Source: Gammaproteobacteria bacterium HGW-Gammaproteobacteria-1
GTDB lineage: Bacteria > Pseudomonadota > Gammaproteobacteria > Thiohalomonadales > Thiohalomonadaceae
DNA: 64,000 bases
Assembly (NCBI GenBank): GCA_002840095.1
Contig: PGZL01000005.1
Coordinates: 62,001-126,000, forward strand
Direction: 5' to 3'
Shown here: positions 18,692 to 58,342 of the stretch, piece after piece
How positions within the stretch are numbered: the stretch's first letter is position 1
Layout: each line of letters begins with the position of its first letter
The notes under the pieces: generated by a model
Told to the model about the DNA's origin: nothing
Database searches by the model: none
The model's input: the letters and a program-made list of their open reading frames with translations, nothing else
Program-made: the position numbers and the translations under genes

Positions 18692-18741
18692 GCGCGGCTT
18701 CAATAGGCAAACCCGCATATTGAGATTTGAGTAAATCCGCA

Positions 18742-18809
18742 CACGCACCGTCACACTGGCCGGGGTGCCCCCAGGGTTGTAACCCGGAGGTCGGCCAGCG
18801 GGGTGCGTG
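18742..18809 (+). promoter_or_regulatory. Structured rpsB leader, probable S2 autoregulatory element
   Basis: The rpsB 5' leader can fold into stacked helices: CACGCACC (18742-18749) with GGTGCGTG (18802-18809), CTGGCC (18756-18761) with GGCCAG (18793-18798), and an apical GGGT/ACCC hairpin (18774-18785). S2 is known to repress rpsB-tsf through the leader in E. coli and the leader structure is conserved in gammaproteobacteria. That this element is the S2 site is inference from position and fold. Confidence 0.6.
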
Positions 18810-18839
18810 GAGGCCCAACCCTTGCAGGAGTTAGCAAAA

Positions 18840-44465: not shown

Positions 44466-44621
44466 TTCACCGTAAAGACGCCAAGAATGCAATGAACTTG
44501 AAAACCTCCGCCGCAGAGACGCGGAGACACAGAGGAAACACAAGCAATCTTCTTTTCTCTGCGCCTCTGCGTCTCTGCGGCAGATTAGGTTTGTTCATTT
44601 TATTCGTGTCCTTGCGGTGAA
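44466..44621. repeat. Nested repeat element between kdsA and eno
   Basis: The inner arms are CGCAGAGAC-type words (44508-44534 and 44557-44583). The outer arms are imperfect: TTCACCGTAAAGACGCCAAG (from 44466) pairs with CTTGCGGTGAA (44611-44621) and TTTATTCGTGTC. This is the same nested plan as the island at 31241-31465: an A-rich CGCAAAG/CGCCAAG outer stem around a CGCAGAG inner stem. Confidence 0.8.
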
Positions 44622-46309: not shown

Positions 46310-46338
46310 CGCCCCCGTGTTCCAAATCACCTGATGGA

Positions 46339-46420
46339 GGATGGGGAGAGCGCAGCGAAACCCATCGTTCCGGGGCAGGAGAGTCAAAACCCGATGGGTT
46401 TCGCTGCGCTCTACCCATCC
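46339..46420. repeat. 29-bp near-perfect inverted repeat between ftsB and ispD
   Basis: The arms at 46339-46367 and 46392-46420 match at 28 of 29 positions and contain GGATGGG..AGAGCGCAGCGAAACCCATCG in both orientations, with a 24-nt loop. It is not built of short words, unlike the islands further left. A partial relative lies inside the 31241-31465 island. Similar sequences are common between genes in many gammaproteobacteria. Confidence 0.85.
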
Positions 46421-46445
46421 TACAATCGCGGGAAGGGTGTGCCCG

Positions 46446-47856: not shown

Positions 47857-50190
47857 TCACCGGAAATTCTCTTCCGGCTCCACCGTAAATTCCAAGGTAT
47901 CGCTCATCCCCGCCTGGTCGGTCACGGCCAGCTGATATTTGCCGGGCTCGGGCATCGGCAGTTTCAGGACATCGCCCTGGCTTTCCAGCAGTTCGCCGTT
48001 GAGGAACCAGTACCACTGCGGTTGGCCGCCGACGGCGCGGAAGCCGAGCAGGGGTTGTTCGGCGGTGGTGGCGTGGCGTTTGAGGCGGGCCTTTTTGTCC
48101 AGGCCGATGATCTGCACCGGGGTTTCGCTGAGCAGGCCGGCGCTGTGCTTGCAGCGGGGATCGAGCGGCGGGATGCGGGTGTTGGTACGCCATTTGGCCG
48201 GCAGCCAGCTTTGCAGGGGGGCGGGCCAGACGGGGAGCGTTGTTTCGGCTGAGGCGATGTTGCAGCCGAGGGCGGTGCGCAGCCCGCTGTCGCCGGCCAG
48301 GCGCAGGGTGAGGTAGGGGTTGGGGATCAGCGGCGACTGCGCGACGCTGCCCATGAAGGTGGCAGGGATGACGTCGTCCACTATCCATGCCTGGCGTTGT
48401 TCGTCGCACAGTTGCGGCGTTTCCTGGCCGGTGGGCCAGCAGATGGCTTTGCGGCTGACGTTGGCCGGTCTGGCGGGAAGTCCCGGGCCGCTGTTGGGCA
48501 GGATGGCGGCGGCGGCACGCAGGATCGGCACGGCGGTGTAGCTGCCGTAGTGGCCGGTCATGGCGGCGTTGTCGGGGCGTCCCACCCAGACGCCGATGGT
48601 GTGATGCCTGCCGACGCCGATGGCCCAGGCGTCGCGGTTGCCGTAGCTGGTGCCGGTTTTGATGGCGAGCCCCTGCTGCCAGGTGGTCTCTTCGCGGCGG
48701 TGGGAGAGGATGTCGCGGATGATCCAGGCGCTGCCGGGGCTGAGCAGTCTGCGTTTTTGCAACGGGTCGTCGGGGGTCAGGCGCGGCACGATGGCGTAGC
48801 CGTCGTTGCCCAGGGCGCTGTAGAGCCCCAGCAGGCGTTCCAGGTTGGTGGCCACGCCGCCGAGGGCGATGGCGAGACTGGGCGTGGCGCCCGGCGGCAG
48901 GTGGAGGCCCGCGCCGGCGGTCTGCATGCGGGCGAAGAAGTGGGCCGGGTCGAGTCGCTCCAGCACCTGGACGGCGGGCACGTTGAGCGAGAGTTGCAGC
49001 GCGTGGCTGACGCTGACCGGGCCGGAGAAGCCGCGGCTGAAATTCAGCGGGCGGTAGTCGCCGAAGGCTAGCGGGGCATCCAGCAGCAGGCTTTCGCTGT
49101 GGATCAGGCCCTCGTCCATGGCCATGCCGTAGATGAACGGCTTGAGCGTCGAGCCGGGGGAGCGCTCGGCGGTGACCATGTCGATGTAGCCGAAGCGTTC
49201 CATGTCGCCGAGGCCGGCGGAGCCGAGATAGGCGACCACCTTGCCGCTGCCGTGTTCCATCACCTCGATGGCCAGCGAGGCGTGCTGCGGCAGCTGGTGG
49301 AGCTGTTCGCGGGCCAGTGTTTCCAGACGGCGTTGCAGCTGGCGGTCGATGAAGGCGGTGACGCGGTGGTCGGTGGTGTTGCGCCCGATGAGCCGCCGCG
49401 CCAGCAGCGGGGCCAGCGGCTTGAGATGCGGCGGGGTGGCGGCGACGCCTTCGAGCTTGGCGTCGGCGGCCTCCTCCGGGCTGAGCAGGCCGAACTCGAC
49501 CAGCCGGTCCAGCACCTTGTCGCGCTGCAAGCGCGCGCGCTCCGGATAGCGGTCGGGACGGTAGCGGCTGGGCGCCTGCGGCAGCACCGCCAGCAGCGCC
49601 CCCTGGGCGCGGGTGAGGCGGGCGGCGGGATAGCCGAAGTAACTGCGGCTGGCCGCTTCCACGCCTTGCAAGGGGCCGCCGAAGGGGGCGTGGTTGATGT
49701 AGTAGGTGAGGATCTCGTCCTTGCTGTAGTGCAGTTCCAGTTGCAGGGCACGGACGATCTGCCGCAGCTTGTCGCCGATGCCGCCGTGGCCGGGATAGCG
49801 GATGCGTGCCACCTGCATGGTGAGGGTGGAGCCGCCGGAGACGATATGGCCGTGGCGCAGCCACTGCCAGGCGGCCCGCAGCAGGGACAAGGGATTGACG
49901 CCGAGGTGGTGGTAGAACCAGCGGTCCTCGTAGCCGATGAGCGTCTGCACATAATCGGGCGAGACCTGATCGAGGCCGACCTGGTAGCGCCATTCGCCGT
50001 TCTGATCGGCAAAGGCGCGCAGCGGCTCACCGCGGCTGTCGACCACCACGCGGGCGGTGCTGAGCGGCTGCAGATCGACCGGCGCCCACAGATCGATGAG
50101 CAGCAATGCGCAGACAAGAATGCCGGCCGCAATAAAAACGGGCCTGGCGTAATGCCAGGCCCGCTTGCCCAGGGCGGTTGCTGCCGGCAC
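47857..50190 (-). CDS. pbpC: Penicillin-binding protein 1C
   Basis: Bifunctional peptidoglycan glycosyltransferase/transpeptidase-like protein of 777 aa. One N-terminal membrane helix (~17-35) is followed by the GT51 domain with E88 (GYEDRWFYHH) and GGSTLTMQVAR at 119-129. The penicillin-binding domain has S347-x-x-K350 (SPGSTLKPF) and K511-T-G (IKTGTSYGNRDAW), and the C-terminus is a BiPBP_C domain. The start is GTG at 50190, 3 nt after the macroglobulin stop, so the two are coupled. The same pairing occurs in E. coli (yfhM-pbpC). Confidence 0.95.
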   Translation of the reverse strand: MPAATALGKRAWHYARPVFIAAGILVCALLLIDLWAPVDLQPLSTARVVVDSRGEPLRAFADQNGEWRYQVGLDQVSPDYVQTLIGYEDRWFYHHLGVNPLSLLRAAWQWLRHGHIVSGGSTLTMQVARIRYPGHGGIGDKLRQIVRALQLELHYSKDEILTYYINHAPFGGPLQGVEAASRSYFGYPAARLTRAQGALLAVLPQAPSRYRPDRYPERARLQRDKVLDRLVEFGLLSPEEAADAKLEGVAATPPHLKPLAPLLARRLIGRNTTDHRVTAFIDRQLQRRLETLAREQLHQLPQHASLAIEVMEHGSGKVVAYLGSAGLGDMERFGYIDMVTAERSPGSTLKPFIYGMAMDEGLIHSESLLLDAPLAFGDYRPLNFSRGFSGPVSVSHALQLSLNVPAVQVLERLDPAHFFARMQTAGAGLHLPPGATPSLAIALGGVATNLERLLGLYSALGNDGYAIVPRLTPDDPLQKRRLLSPGSAWIIRDILSHRREETTWQQGLAIKTGTSYGNRDAWAIGVGRHHTIGVWVGRPDNAAMTGHYGSYTAVPILRAAAAILPNSGPGLPARPANVSRKAICWPTGQETPQLCDEQRQAWIVDDVIPATFMGSVAQSPLIPNPYLTLRLAGDSGLRTALGCNIASAETTLPVWPAPLQSWLPAKWRTNTRIPPLDPRCKHSAGLLSETPVQIIGLDKKARLKRHATTAEQPLLGFRAVGGQPQWYWFLNGELLESQGDVLKLPMPEPGKYQLAVTDQAGMSDTLEFTVEPEENFR

Positions 50191-50193
50191 CGG

Positions 50194-53100
50194 TTACTTC
50201 GAGATACGCAGCGTCTCTACCGTGGCGCCGACGGCGTGGTGGTAGGGGCGATACATATCCTCTACGTAGGGCGGCGGCACGCGGTACTCACCGGGGGTGA
50301 CCGCACGGGCCAGATAGAACAGGTCGCGGGAGCCGTACTCTTCCACCGCCAGTGCGGCGACGAAGCGATCGTCGCGATACTCCACGTGCACCACCTCGGC
50401 CTTGTCGCGCCAGTCGGCGAGCTGCTGGCCGTCGACGGCCACCTTGCTCAGGTCGACGCTGGCATTGGCCAGGTTCTGGTTCTCCAGTTCCAGGCCGGCG
50501 GGCAGCAGGTCGACCACCAGGCCGTCCGGCGTGTACTTGCTGGCGGTGACCACCAGTCGCACCACCACCAGCTCGCCGCCTTTGAGTGACTTCAGGTCGA
50601 GCGGCTTGCCGTCGATGTCGAAGTAGTCGCGCCGGATGGTGAAGCCGTCGCCGGAGGGCGCCGGTACGCCCGCCTGGTTGCCGATGATCTCCAGGCTGGC
50701 ATACACGGTGTTCTCGTTCGCGCTTATGGACTGGATGGAATCGAGCTGGTCGAAGCCGAGGATCGTCTTGAACGGCTTCTCCTGCGCGATGCTCTGCCTG
50801 TTCTTCTTCGTCTCGATCAGCGCGAGCAGCTTTTCGCCGCCGGCCGTCTTGGAGGCAAGCGCCGCCTTGAACAGCGCGTTGCGCTCCTGCGTGCTGAGCC
50901 AGGGGCGCTGCCGGGTCAGATCGAACAGCTGCAGCAGCATGTCCGCCCTGGCCTCGCCGCGTGAGGCCAGGATGGCGTAGGTGAGCGACAGGTCGCGCAG
51001 GTTGCTGTCGTAGTAGCCCACATAGCGCTCGGCAAACTTCAGCTGGCGCGCCTTGTCGTAGGCCGCCTTGGCGCGCGTGGCGTCGCCCTGCTTATCGAGG
51101 GCAAAGCCCAGCTGGGCCCAGGGCAACGGCGAGTCGTCGAATTTGCCGTCGACGGCATCGTAGAGCCGCCGCAGGTCGGACAGGTTGGTGCGGTTGACCT
51201 TGGCCAGCACGTAGGCGGCGTAGGCGCGGCTGGCGAAGTTGTAGACCTTGGCATCGCTGCTCCAGCGCTGGGCGATGGGCGCCTGTTCGCGCAGGTATTC
51301 GCCGAGGCGGTTCAATGCCTTGTTCACCGCGTCGCCGTCGACCTCGGCACCGGTCATCTTCGCATCGGTGAGGAAGTCGGCGACGTAGACCGTCAGCCAG
51401 CTCAGCTCGTCGCCGTTGCCGTCCCACAGGGTGAAACCGCCGGAGCTGTTCTGCCGCGGCAGGAGCCGCTTGACCGCCTTTTCGATCTGCTCCTTGCGGA
51501 ACGCCTCGGTGTAGTCGGTCTTGAACTCGCTGCGGATCAGCGGCAACAGGTCCATGCGCTGGGCCGCGTCGAGGTCCACCAGTACCCAGGGATAACCCGA
51601 GCTGGTGCTCTGCTCGGTGCAGCCGTACGGATAGTGGAGCAGGTGCCGGAACTGCGAGTTGACGTCGATGGGCGGCTGGTTGGAAAGGATCAGCTGCCCC
51701 TGCACGCTGGCCTGCGCCAGATCGGCGATATCCACCGTGGGGCGCCAGGCCTCGCCGGGATTGATGACGGTCATCTCCTTGCGGGTGACGGCCGGATAGG
51801 CGTAGCGCACGCCCAGGGTCCAGTTGCGTTGCAGCGCGATGGCCTCGTTGCCCTGCCTGTTGTTGCTGACGGTCAACTCGATCAGGCCGTCGCCCACCGC
51901 CGCGGCGGTGATGGGGAAGCGCAGGGTTTGTTTCTTGCCGTCGTCCAGCGCCACCTGCTCATCCCACACCTGGGCGGCGAGGGCGCCGCCGCTGCTCATG
52001 GCGACGCTGAGTTGCTGCGGCGCGCCGCTCATGTTGCTCAGGTCGAGGGTCAGTTCCGATTTGTCATCGACGGCGAGGAAGCGCGGCTTGGACAGCTGCG
52101 TCACCAGTTTGTCGGCCACGGTGGTATTGGCCTCGGCGCTGCCGAAGGTCTGGTCGGACCAGGCGATGGCCATCCAGCGCAGCTTGCCGTTGAACTGCGG
52201 AATGTCCATGGTGACGGTGGCGCGGCCGTCCTTGCCGACGCGCACCGGCGCCGATTGCAGCGACACGATGCGCACGTCGTTCTTCGGCTTGTCGCCGCCG
52301 CGCGAGAGCTCGGCCTCGGACTCGGCGAAGTCGCCACCGAAGCGGTACTGGCTGTAGTTGAAACCGGCGTTCTCGATAATCTGGCCGTAGACGTCGTACA
52401 GGTTGGCTTCATAACGGCGCGGACTGAACAGGTAAGCGACCGGATCCGGCGTCTTGTAGCGGGTGATGTTGAGTACGCCGACATCGACCGCGGCCAGGGT
52501 GACGTAGGTGTTGTCCGGAATGGTGCCGTTGCCGCCGGTAAGCCTGACGACGGCGGCGACCTTCTGTTCCGGTGCAATCTTTTCCGGCACCTCGATGCTC
52601 ACGTCGAAGCCGGCATCGCTGCGGCGCAGCGGCAGATTGACGAAACCGAACGCCCGCTTCGGGGCCACGCTGTGCTTCATGTCGCCGGGGCTGAGGATGG
52701 TGGCGGTGACGTAGATGTCGTGACGCGACCAGTCGCTGTTGACCGGAATGTCGATCACCGTCTTCTCCGCTGCTACGGAACGTTGGCTCACCCACAACAC
52801 GGTGTCGTTGTTCTCCACCGTGATGGTGGCCAGACCGGCGGTGGCGGGGGAGAGCAGCAGGTGGGCGGTGTCGCCGGCCTGGTAACTGTCTTCGCGGAAG
52901 CCCAGGTTGACCTGGTCGGGCTTGAGGGCGTTGCCGTCGGCACTGTTGCCCCACCAATACCAGCGGGTGCGGAAACGGTAGCTGCTGACGATCTGGTTGG
53001 AACCGTCACGCACTTCCAGGCGGTAGTTGCCCCACTTGACCGGTACGGCGATGGACACGGGTTTGTCGGCGCTGAACTTCAGCTTGCCGGAGAAACTTTC

Positions 53101-55329
53101 GTACTCCATCGGATCGTAGTGCCAGCTCCAGCCGCTGCTGTCGCTGTAGGTCCAATAGTAGTTGCGGTCTTCCTGTATCAGCACGTACTGGTAGCTGCCG
53201 GACTGCGGCTGGCCCTGGCTGTCGGTCAACACCAGCTTGAAGCCGGCACGGCTGTTGTTGTCGGCCTGCTTGCTGAACTGCGGCTCGATGCCGACCAGCT
53301 GCTTCTGGGTGATGCGCGTGGCGCTGAAGCTGCGGGTGACCGGGCGGCCGCCGCTCTCGTAGAGGCTGGCGGTGGAGGTGAGGGCCAGCGGCGAGGCCAC
53401 GCCCTTCCAGTTGCCGAGGTCGATGCTCCATTCGCCGGCGCCGTCGCCGTCCAGATTGATGGCGGGCAGCGTTACGCGCGGCGTGGGAATCTCTTCGCCG
53501 TCGACGCCGAAGCTGTAGCTCTTCCACTGCTCGAACGGATGCCGGTCCAGCTCGGCCAGCAGGTTGCCGTCGACCCGATTGCCGGAGGCCGGCGCGCCGT
53601 ACAGGTATTTGCCGCTGAGCGGAATGGTCAGGGTATTCGCGTCGTGGAACAGGCGGCGGCGCAGCGGGTCTCCGTCGTAGAGGGATATCTCCATGCGCTC
53701 GGGCATGAATTCCTCGACGGCGAATTTGTACTCGCTCAGCACCTCGTTGTTGCCGGGATTGCTGTAGATCAGTTTCCACTCGCCCGGTTTGGCCGTGTCG
53801 GTCATTTGGTGGGTGAAGTGGTAGGTACCGCTGTCGTCGCGGTTCAGTGTGGCGTTGGCTGCCTGACTGCCGGTGGCGTCGTAGAGGCTGGCGCGCACCG
53901 GCATCCCGCGCAGCGGACGGCCGTCGTGGTCGCGCAGGATGGCGTAGGTTTCGATCAGCTCGCCCGGCCGGTACAGGTCGCGCGGTCCCCAGGCGAACAG
54001 CTGCATCTCCTGAAAACGCGCAATGGCATTGCTGATGCCGGAAAGGTCGAGCGGCTGGTCCAGGCGCAGTACCGTATAGTCGCTGCCGCTGCGCGCGATC
54101 AGGGTGCTGGTCTCTTCGAACCAGTTGCTGAAGGACGCGATGCCGTCCTTGCCGGTGGTCTGGCTCGCCTTCAGGTCATTGCCCTTGAACAGCGATATCT
54201 CCACCCCTGTCAGCGCCTTGCCCGAAGTGACCGAGTTGCTGAAAACATGCATACCCTTCACCGTGCGTCGCACCTGGATGCCGATATCGCTGACGGTGAA
54301 GAAGTTGGTTTCGTAGTCGTAGGTGTACTTGCCGGGGACGCGCAGCACGGCCAGGTAGGCACCGCTCCCGGCCAGTGCCGGAATGTTGCTCAGGTCGAGA
54401 TTGGTGGTGGTGCGCTGGTTGCGCCGATGCTTGATCGGGAAACGGGCACTGAACGCCAGCGGATGCTTCTCGGAGAAGGCGTTCATGCGGTAGTAGTTGT
54501 TGCGCTGGCTGCCGCTGAACTGGCTCCAGGCCGGGATTTCGTCGGGGGCGATGTGGAAGAAGTCCAGATCCACCTCGTCCACGTTGAGGGTGGTGACCGG
54601 CAGGGCGCGCTTCATCTTGGTGCTCATCACTTCGCCACCACCGGCAAACGAGGCGCTCGGCTCGCTGCGGCGGCTGGTAATGGTGAATTCACGGTTGCCG
54701 GAATGGCTGCGGCCGTTGATTGCCTTCAGGCCCGGCTTGACCTTGACGGTGTACTTGGTCGAGGGCTCGATGAAGGGATAGATGGCGAGGAAGCCGTCAT
54801 CGTTGATCAGCCAGTTGTTGGCCGGCAGCGTAGTGGTTTCGGTGCTGATCTCCAGATGGCGGCGGAAGTCGGCATTGCGATCGACCGGGACATTGAAACG
54901 GATGACGACCGAGGCGGCATTGTCGTAGCTCTGCTCAAGGGCGGAGGTGACCTCCACGTCCTTGCCGGCGTAGATGACCTGTTGATACAGGCCGTTCAGC
55001 TCGTCGATGCGTTTGTTGTAGCTGTCGGTCAGACACTTGTTGTCGTTGCAGCGATCGCGCGTCTGGATCCAGACCCACTGGAGGCTCTTCACCTTTTCCG
55101 CGTCCTGGCCGGACATCCCGGCGATGACGTCGTTGTAGAGGCTGCCCAGTTTGCCGTCGAGTTCGGAGAGCGTCTGGTCGCCGCAAATGGTTTTTTCGAT
55201 GGCGGAAGCGGCCTTGCCGCAATCGAAGCTGGCGGCCCGCAGGACGGGACTTGCAAGCAACAGCAGGGTGGACAGCAGCAACGCGGCCGTGCGCTGGATG
55301 AACAGGAGGCGGGTCGAGGCAGGAGTCAT
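50194..55329 (-). CDS. yfhM: Bacterial alpha-2-macroglobulin with an N-terminal LprI-type lysozyme-inhibitor domain
   Basis: This 1711-aa protease trap begins with a signal peptide (RTAALLLSTLLLLASPVLRA). Residues ~34-115 match the LprI/DUF1311 fold with four Cys (C37, C49, C94, C99) and QWVWIQTRDRC. Macroglobulin-like MG domains follow, then the thioester motif CTEQ at 1237-1240 (YPYGCTEQSTSSG) and a helical TED domain. E. coli YfhM is a lipoprotein; here no lipobox is present, so the protein should be soluble in the periplasm. AAAGGGA lies before the ATG. It is 3 nt upstream of pbpC on the same strand. Confidence 0.92.
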   Translation of the reverse strand: MTPASTRLLFIQRTAALLLSTLLLLASPVLRAASFDCGKAASAIEKTICGDQTLSELDGKLGSLYNDVIAGMSGQDAEKVKSLQWVWIQTRDRCNDNKCLTDSYNKRIDELNGLYQQVIYAGKDVEVTSALEQSYDNAASVVIRFNVPVDRNADFRRHLEISTETTTLPANNWLINDDGFLAIYPFIEPSTKYTVKVKPGLKAINGRSHSGNREFTITSRRSEPSASFAGGGEVMSTKMKRALPVTTLNVDEVDLDFFHIAPDEIPAWSQFSGSQRNNYYRMNAFSEKHPLAFSARFPIKHRRNQRTTTNLDLSNIPALAGSGAYLAVLRVPGKYTYDYETNFFTVSDIGIQVRRTVKGMHVFSNSVTSGKALTGVEISLFKGNDLKASQTTGKDGIASFSNWFEETSTLIARSGSDYTVLRLDQPLDLSGISNAIARFQEMQLFAWGPRDLYRPGELIETYAILRDHDGRPLRGMPVRASLYDATGSQAANATLNRDDSGTYHFTHQMTDTAKPGEWKLIYSNPGNNEVLSEYKFAVEEFMPERMEISLYDGDPLRRRLFHDANTLTIPLSGKYLYGAPASGNRVDGNLLAELDRHPFEQWKSYSFGVDGEEIPTPRVTLPAINLDGDGAGEWSIDLGNWKGVASPLALTSTASLYESGGRPVTRSFSATRITQKQLVGIEPQFSKQADNNSRAGFKLVLTDSQGQPQSGSYQYVLIQEDRNYYWTYSDSSGWSWHYDPMEYESFSGKLKFSADKPVSIAVPVKWGNYRLEVRDGSNQIVSSYRFRTRWYWWGNSADGNALKPDQVNLGFREDSYQAGDTAHLLLSPATAGLATITVENNDTVLWVSQRSVAAEKTVIDIPVNSDWSRHDIYVTATILSPGDMKHSVAPKRAFGFVNLPLRRSDAGFDVSIEVPEKIAPEQKVAAVVRLTGGNGTIPDNTYVTLAAVDVGVLNITRYKTPDPVAYLFSPRRYEANLYDVYGQIIENAGFNYSQYRFGGDFAESEAELSRGGDKPKNDVRIVSLQSAPVRVGKDGRATVTMDIPQFNGKLRWMAIAWSDQTFGSAEANTTVADKLVTQLSKPRFLAVDDKSELTLDLSNMSGAPQQLSVAMSSGGALAAQVWDEQVALDDGKKQTLRFPITAAAVGDGLIELTVSNNRQGNEAIALQRNWTLGVRYAYPAVTRKEMTVINPGEAWRPTVDIADLAQASVQGQLILSNQPPIDVNSQFRHLLHYPYGCTEQSTSSGYPWVLVDLDAAQRMDLLPLIRSEFKTDYTEAFRKEQIEKAVKRLLPRQNSSGGFTLWDGNGDELSWLTVYVADFLTDAKMTGAEVDGDAVNKALNRLGEYLREQAPIAQRWSSDAKVYNFASRAYAAYVLAKVNRTNLSDLRRLYDAVDGKFDDSPLPWAQLGFALDKQGDATRAKAAYDKARQLKFAERYVGYYDSNLRDLSLTYAILASRGEARADMLLQLFDLTRQRPWLSTQERNALFKAALASKTAGGEKLLALIETKKNRQSIAQEKPFKTILGFDQLDSIQSISANENTVYASLEIIGNQAGVPAPSGDGFTIRRDYFDIDGKPLDLKSLKGGELVVVRLVVTASKYTPDGLVVDLLPAGLELENQNLANASVDLSKVAVDGQQLADWRDKAEVVHVEYRDDRFVAALAVEEYGSRDLFYLARAVTPGEYRVPPPYVEDMYRPYHHAVGATVETLRISK

Positions 55330-58312: not shown

Positions 58313-58342
58313 TTCTACGCGCCTCTGCGTCTCTGCGACGGG
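58313..58342. repeat. Single CGCAGAG-family arm between ispF and truD
   Basis: A lone right arm (GCGCCTCTGCGTCTCTGCG) of the family seen at 31280, 32635 and 44508. No left arm is visible, so it is a half element or remnant. Confidence 0.6.

Follow-up and report, generated by a model that had tools for sequence, protein, structure and literature searches.

What could a bacterium do with an exported protein in which a domain of the LprI family stands in front of an alpha-2-macroglobulin (A2M) protease trap, and is such a protein peculiar to one genome? The window analysed here (the whole stretch of 64,000 nucleotides from contig PGZL01000005.1 of Gammaproteobacteria bacterium HGW-Gammaproteobacteria-1) encodes one on its minus strand, with the following features at and beside the gene.

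50194..55329, minus strand: coding sequence of the LprI-A2M fusion protein, 1711 aa, ATG start, stop codon included
55234..55329, minus strand: signal peptide, residues 1-32 (by eye and crude scan; no lipobox)
54979..55233, minus strand: LprI/DUF1311 domain, residues 33-117, with Cys 37, 49, 94 and 99 (Pfam, profile, AlphaFold model)
54670..54972, minus strand: bMG1, residues 120-220 (Pfam)
54298..54651, minus strand: bMG2, residues 227-344 (Pfam)
52468..52896, minus strand: bait-region domain, residues 812-954 (Pfam)
51310..51660, minus strand: thioester domain (TED) match, residues 1224-1340 (Pfam, 22.1 bits against a cut-off of 22)
51610..51621, minus strand: thioester motif CTEQ, residues 1237-1240 (sequence)
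50245..50646, minus strand: bMG10 (C-terminal MG), residues 1562-1695 (Pfam)
47857..50190, minus strand: pbpC (penicillin-binding protein 1C), the listed frame starting 3 bp after the fusion gene

Protein layout and the A2M body

Residues 1-32, judged by eye, have a basic n-region, a Leu-rich core and small residues at the end, and look Sec-like. The residues S-F-D immediately before C37 are not a lipobox, and an earlier start hiding one is excluded because the open frame of 1715 residues leaves only four codons upstream of the ATG; the absence of a lipobox, noted in the preliminary description of this DNA, is thereby confirmed. The whole protein contains just five cysteines: Cys 37, 49, 94 and 99 belong to LprI, and Cys 1237 is that of the CTEQ motif. 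Such a set would fit two disulfides and one thioester.

The same description had reported a full MG/TED architecture with an intact CTEQ, which the Pfam search bears out: bMG1, bMG2, bMG3, MG2, bMG5, bMG6, the bait region (PF07703, 48.6 bits against a cut-off of 22.7), A2M and bMG10 all exceed their cut-offs, and TED does so barely. The E. coli and Salmonella A2M structures align with the protein from residue 114-121 to its end (phmmer E 1.7e-294 to 1.4e-282), and since they align only from there on, LprI is an addition in front of the A2M. That the protein is a complete type I bacterial A2M of the YfhM/ECAM kind, acting as a trap, is therefore well supported. As described in the available part of PMC4498604, such proteins work by bait cleavage, conformational change and covalent capture through CxEQ, and two N-terminal MG domains hold bacterial A2M at the inner membrane; in the window protein LprI precedes the very end said to anchor there. 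An AlphaFold model of residues 33-345 was weak outside LprI (mean pLDDT 65.3), with the E. coli and Salmonella A2Ms as top matches. NF049887 (A1S_1983 putative colistin-resistance protein) scored 23.9 bits, under its cut-off of 150.

Compared with E. coli YfhM/ECAM and Salmonella A2M (5a42, 4ziq, 4rtd, 4u48), the window protein shares the body, the CxEQ motif, the bait region and the pbpC neighbour (PMC4498604, in part). It differs from E. coli YfhM, named a lipoprotein in its PDB entries, in having LprI in front and no lipobox. A crude scan, run on rows other than those of the fused family f211 described below, found a lipobox in 26 of 83 unfused A2M rows and in none of 8 fused rows. It overlooks some lipoboxes (L008) and gives what seem to be false hits for L061 and L066. 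On this count a lipid anchor does not define the YfhM/ECAM family. The idea that LprI is a strict substitute for the lipid anchor was rejected, as L043, the closest of the unfused A2Ms in the tree, also lacks a lipobox by the same scan.

Family membership and fold of the front domain

The preliminary description had seen an LprI pattern with four spaced cysteines at about residues 34-115, and PF07007 (LprI, formerly DUF1311) indeed matches residues 37-111, around Cys 37/49/94/99. Within the whole protein this match scores 22.0 bits, exactly the curated cut-off of 22; residues 30-118 alone score 29.7 bits (E 8.6e-7). A profile of eight LprI modules from other, unfused proteins, with the window protein excluded, gave 77.5 bits on the window domain, while the best of 20,000 shuffles of that domain reached 16.5 bits; since the window protein was the query that had turned up the eight modules, this test is strong but not wholly independent. 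The four cysteines are invariant across 18 aligned LprI modules. A chance or borderline Pfam match is rejected by the score of the isolated segment, by the profile and shuffles, and by the recurrence of the pairing described below.

Structure prediction of the front domain, which had been suggested as a check, gave a helical bundle. The AlphaFold2 model of residues 33-120, computed from the window sequence together with four relatives from Thalassospira, has three long helices and one short (mean pLDDT 91.2, pTM 0.80). Foldseek returned nothing from the PDB at E <= 0.001, the top entry being 6ar7, an unnamed Burkholderia thailandensis protein (E 0.5, TM-score 0.71 over the query). A second structure aligner also placed 6ar7 first (Z 11.1, rmsd 2.8, 78 residues), and the solved DUF1311 protein 3gi7 (Pseudomonas putida PP0307) came seventh, behind unrelated helical bundles (Z 7.3, 72 residues, 24% identity). 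An LprI-module profile (A1) finds 6ar7 by sequence as well (E 2.6e-4, over 30 positions only), and a phmmer search of PDB sequences with the 89-residue LprI segment gave no match. Because helical bundles often reach such values by chance, membership rests on sequence, with which the structure agrees.

In its profile and in the four cysteines reported for the family (PMC7933661, in part) the window domain resembles other PF07007 proteins, namely M. tuberculosis LprI, PP0307 (3gi7) and Salmonella ScwA, and in its modelled helical bundle it may do so too. Those proteins, however, stand alone or are joined to other parts, an MliC domain in the case of M. tuberculosis LprI (PMC7933661, in part). 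A Pfam scan of the whole window protein gave no MliC match (PF09864, the number being that in the available part of PMC7933661) at E <= 1.

Distribution of the LprI-A2M pairing

With the whole protein as query, matches were recovered from 24 of 95 relatives (some to LprI only), from 8 of 20 genomes of its own family and 46 of 369 of its own class at E <= 1e-20, and, at E <= 1e-40, from 125 of the 398 genomes sampled for the phylum. The window genome is counted each time; the species genomes are a sample, and E limits and numbers of candidates scored differ between surveys; in the class and phylum A2M surveys at most two candidates were scored per genome, at E <= 1e-20 and 1e-40, respectively. 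All four genomes of the same genus gave no A2M match at E <= 1e-20. Apart from the window protein, none of the A2M matches listed for the 369 genomes of its class showed the pairing, and most A2Ms found have no LprI domain. Among the matches listed, only the window genome and one other, G613 (18 to 1705), have an A2M match that starts before query residue 109.

An A2M match was found in 7 of the 29 genomes of that second genome's family, and all seven start at query residues 13-26 and are also positive with an LprI profile. We take this to be the family of Thalassospira, a marine genus, because a scan of named genomes gave T. lucentensis HF2 at 100% together with three other Thalassospira. Four of the seven fused genomes carry names: T. 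lucentensis HF2 (L170), T. sp. MCCC 1A03138 (L171), T. profundimaris S25-3-2 (L172) and T. sp. MCCC 1A01428 (L173). Their proteins (1688-1697 aa across the seven genomes) share with the window protein the order of signal peptide, LprI and A2M, the lack of a visible lipobox and pbpC as the next gene. They differ in that overall identity is 28-29%, the A2M body belongs to another clade and the thioester motif is CLEQ.

Searches that started from LprI exposed two further lineages. PF07007 was positive in 182 of 398 genomes of the phylum sample and revealed a 2061-codon frame in genome G517 (family f211), in which LprI is joined to a larger A2M; LprI-A2M is present in seven of the eight genomes of that family, once as an incomplete gene where the contig ends. 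An SFDC-type LprI profile, positive in 141 of 398 genomes, added a protein of 2081 aa with LprI and A2M domains in G552, one genome of family f237. Among the matches listed for this profile nine lie in frames of more than 1400 codons (the window, G613, six from f211 and G552), and as the profile was partly built from fused modules their high rank means nothing. The f211 and f237 proteins (L160-L166, L209) likewise carry LprI in front of A2M, the complete frames being about 2020-2080 aa long. In contrast to the window protein their A2M is of a larger type, that of f211 lies far away in the tree (f237 was not placed), the motif is CMEQ in L150/L160 and CLEQ in L209, and pbpC is not adjacent in the regions examined. 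The E limits and two-candidate scoring explain why the class and phylum A2M surveys missed the f211 type, which came from the LprI searches alone; the matches of those LprI searches are the best rows listed, and more fusions may be hidden.

The preliminary description had treated the pairing as a single curiosity, which no longer holds given its recurrence in such distant lineages as the Thalassospira family, f211 and f237. None of the best 20 of 350 plasmid records matched by the window protein was fused (matches from residue 108 or later), nor was any of the best 15 of 272 matched by a Thalassospira protein (all from residue 138). A first scan of genome contigs with the single window protein gave 14 stretches, none confirmed, and a search of viral contigs with LprI profile A1 led nowhere. 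Literature searches, with subscription papers and preprints outside their coverage, returned no report of LprI joined to a protease trap.

Origins of the fused proteins

A tree of 91 A2M bodies nests the window protein among unfused proteins of the YfhM type (starred sets of 5 and 25 rows) and puts those of Thalassospira in another clade. In a 32-row tree that includes the f211 type, the fused label requires three changes. Constraining the window and Thalassospira proteins to group together lowered the log-likelihood by 155.7 (AU p 6.6e-6), and constraining all three fused groups lowered it by 181.6 (AU p 1.9e-35), in quick 32-row trees with three of the seven Thalassospira-family and five f211 proteins and f237 left out, the test being run after the tree was seen and on a group defined by its trait. 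This test rejects one ancestral fusion passed on with the A2M body, and with one clade of fused bodies rejected, LprI would have reached its place ahead of A2M three times or more, through fusion or through a swap of front ends. Front ends may have been swapped by recombination instead of repeatedly fused. Many A2Ms of the clade near the Thalassospira proteins (L136, L137, L139, L141-L149) carry other N-terminal extensions, of two hundred to more than 1000 residues, in place of LprI, which makes the A2M front end look like a general swap site.

The LprI modules themselves tell less. In a tree of 66 rows and 109 columns all 15 fused modules and 13 others fall in one SFDC-type group (SH-aLRT 94), whose 28 members mostly begin with SFDC or near and stand apart from most stand-alone LprI sampled. 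The alignment is too short to resolve a common source of the fused modules.

Selection and module promiscuity

Six of the 21 possible Thalassospira-family pairs were chosen for an estimate of dN/dS. For the LprI part five of them gave a value, within 0.07-0.45; for the rest of the protein all six did, within 0.09-0.23. The LprI part is thus under purifying selection in these pairs, with a value above that of the rest of the protein in four of the five. A domain that is kept yet faster-changing, as is often the case in binding domains, fits this result, and weaker constraint would give the same picture.

Such weaker constraint would be expected if LprI were a promiscuous secreted module that recombined in together with its signal peptide and gives only export and stability, a neutral or structural cap. 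Modules of the SFDC type do precede several different C-terminal parts, including a WG-repeat protein and several proteins with no other Pfam match among the loci fetched, and two such proteins with other C-terminal parts are found in congeners of the window's species. The joining to A2M may partly reflect this promiscuity, so that its repetition would carry little meaning, and the prevalence of A2Ms lacking LprI, like the higher dN/dS in four of five pairs, points the same way. Against a mere cap stand the presence of LprI in all seven A2M-bearing genomes of the Thalassospira family and in the seven of f211, the four cysteines invariant in 18 rows, dN/dS well below 1, and fused A2M bodies that are not one clade. 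On balance we regard the cap as a rather unlikely explanation.

Four single LprI loci are of note. At L042 (727-3192) an SFDC-type LprI stands before WG repeats (PF14903). On another contig of the window's own genome (L159, 5778-6395) a second PF07007 match of 26.8 bits lies in a secreted-looking frame of 205 aa with no A2M. Five consecutive LprI matches occur in one 506-codon frame at G610:C4:32115-33527, a tandem LprI protein. In a Thalassospira-family genome without an A2M match (G722:C12:26390-26557), a partial LprI match contains an in-frame stop and is possibly a decayed remnant.

The pbpC neighbour

The neighbouring PbpC named in the preliminary description is confirmed by TIGR02073 (699.6 bits, cut-off 494.2); its frame lies directly downstream of the fusion stop codon, 3 bp away, and the two genes probably form one operon. 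The same description read the pair as a shield-and-repair module. Its A2M/PbpC part was already published, in that Budd et al. 2004 proposed that A2M and Pbp1C act jointly in defence and repair (cited in the available part of PMC4498604). The arrangement is not special to this locus: of 114 loci with an A2M match, 82 have a PbpC-like frame in the flanking sequence covered, some of the 114 being duplicate views of one locus and some flanks being short or cut. pbpC adjoins the fusion gene in the window and likewise at each of the seven Thalassospira-family loci. In f211 it was found in one of five regions read more widely, about 4 kb downstream; one of the other four ends with the contig right after the A2M.

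Possible roles of the LprI domain

The preliminary description had also proposed that one protein combines lysozyme inhibition with protease trapping. Its second half is well supported by the A2M body, and its first half does not follow from the evidence, as it rests on the Pfam name. According to the available part of PMC7933661, that name is without experimental support in the authors' protein set, the LprI-domain protein ScwA of Salmonella has no role in lysozyme resistance (deletion of scwA leaves susceptibility unchanged), and ScwA positively controls the levels of MltD. 'Lysozyme inhibitor' is a family name and should not be read as the activity of the window domain. A direct inhibition of lysozyme-type muramidases by LprI, alongside trapping of proteases by A2M, would agree with the PF07007 name, with the report that M. 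tuberculosis LprI counteracts lysozyme and confers resistance to it (cited in PMC7933661 and PMC11189972, each in part), and with LprI proteins being predicted immunity partners beside T6SS effectors that hydrolyse peptidoglycan (PMC8867033 and PMC12135965, each in part). We consider it improbable, given that M. tuberculosis LprI also has the MliC domain absent here, that loss of scwA had no effect, and that carriers of the fusion include Thalassospira, a genus to which animal lysozyme poses no evident danger.

The effect of ScwA on MltD also suggests another role, in which a ScwA-like LprI controls one of the cell's own lytic transglycosylases, such as MltD, and the trap senses or removes proteases acting on it. 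ScwA raises MltD levels (PMC7933661, in part) and the adjacent pbpC places the gene in wall metabolism; ScwA, however, carries LprI at the C-terminus of a different protein, and we hold this role to be very unlikely.

The reading that we tentatively favour, while giving it slightly less than an even chance, is that of a soluble periplasmic trap with an LprI head that binds a wall enzyme, docking on it or inhibiting it, or another wall component; every binding partner and activity in it we infer. In its favour are the domain matches and the front-domain model, the recurrence of the fusion, the separate placement of the fused A2M bodies, purifying selection on LprI in the Thalassospira pairs, the invariant cysteines, the adjacent pbpC and the LprI proteins predicted as immunity partners of T6SS wall hydrolases. 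Against it count ScwA with its lack of a lysozyme role, the promiscuity of the module, the scarcity of pbpC near the f211 genes, the missing lipobox of L043, the same-genus genomes without an A2M match, the higher dN/dS of LprI, and the outcome of the Foldseek search and the low rank of 3gi7. By analogy with the family, an intruding protease would cut the bait region, the A2M would then close, and the thioester of Cys1237-Gln1240 would bond the protease covalently. LprI, sitting where E. coli YfhM has its lipid anchor and probably held by disulfides, may bind a peptidoglycan-cleaving enzyme, either an intruding muramidase-like effector or an own lytic enzyme, or some other component of the wall. 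Such binding could either block the wall-cutting enzyme or keep the trap at the wall, and PbpC, probably from the same operon, would make new peptidoglycan.

A bolder extension of the docking reading would make the protein a two-headed envelope shield, in which distant bacteria independently joined SFDC-type LprI to distantly related A2Ms so that LprI catches the wall-cutter, the trap catches the protease and PbpC repairs. It would arise because an intruder, through T6SS attack or as a predator, delivers muramidases and proteases together; as a whole we think it unlikely. The recurrence of the pairing hints that the two parts work together, and repeated joining suggests that the partner of LprI and the prey of the trap share place and time. 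The protein bears on two questions, namely what bacterial A2Ms protect against in free-living bacteria and what the LprI/DUF1311 domain, with matches in 182 of the 398 phylum genomes sampled, binds. The fusion provides a compact construct for finding the LprI partner, and its recurrence is the part most worth specialist attention.

Other elements in the window

A near-perfect hairpin at 46335-46424, with 33-nt arms that are 94% complementary and a 24-nt loop, resembles a dispersed palindromic repeat; the gene just downstream of it we take to be ispD. A second hairpin, of CTCTGCGTCTCTGCG-type sequence, lies at 44507-44584, and one half of it occurs again at 58313-58337 with 92% identity. At 18720-18819 the window matches the Rfam family t44 RNA (RF00127) with 73.5 bits, the gathering score being 44.
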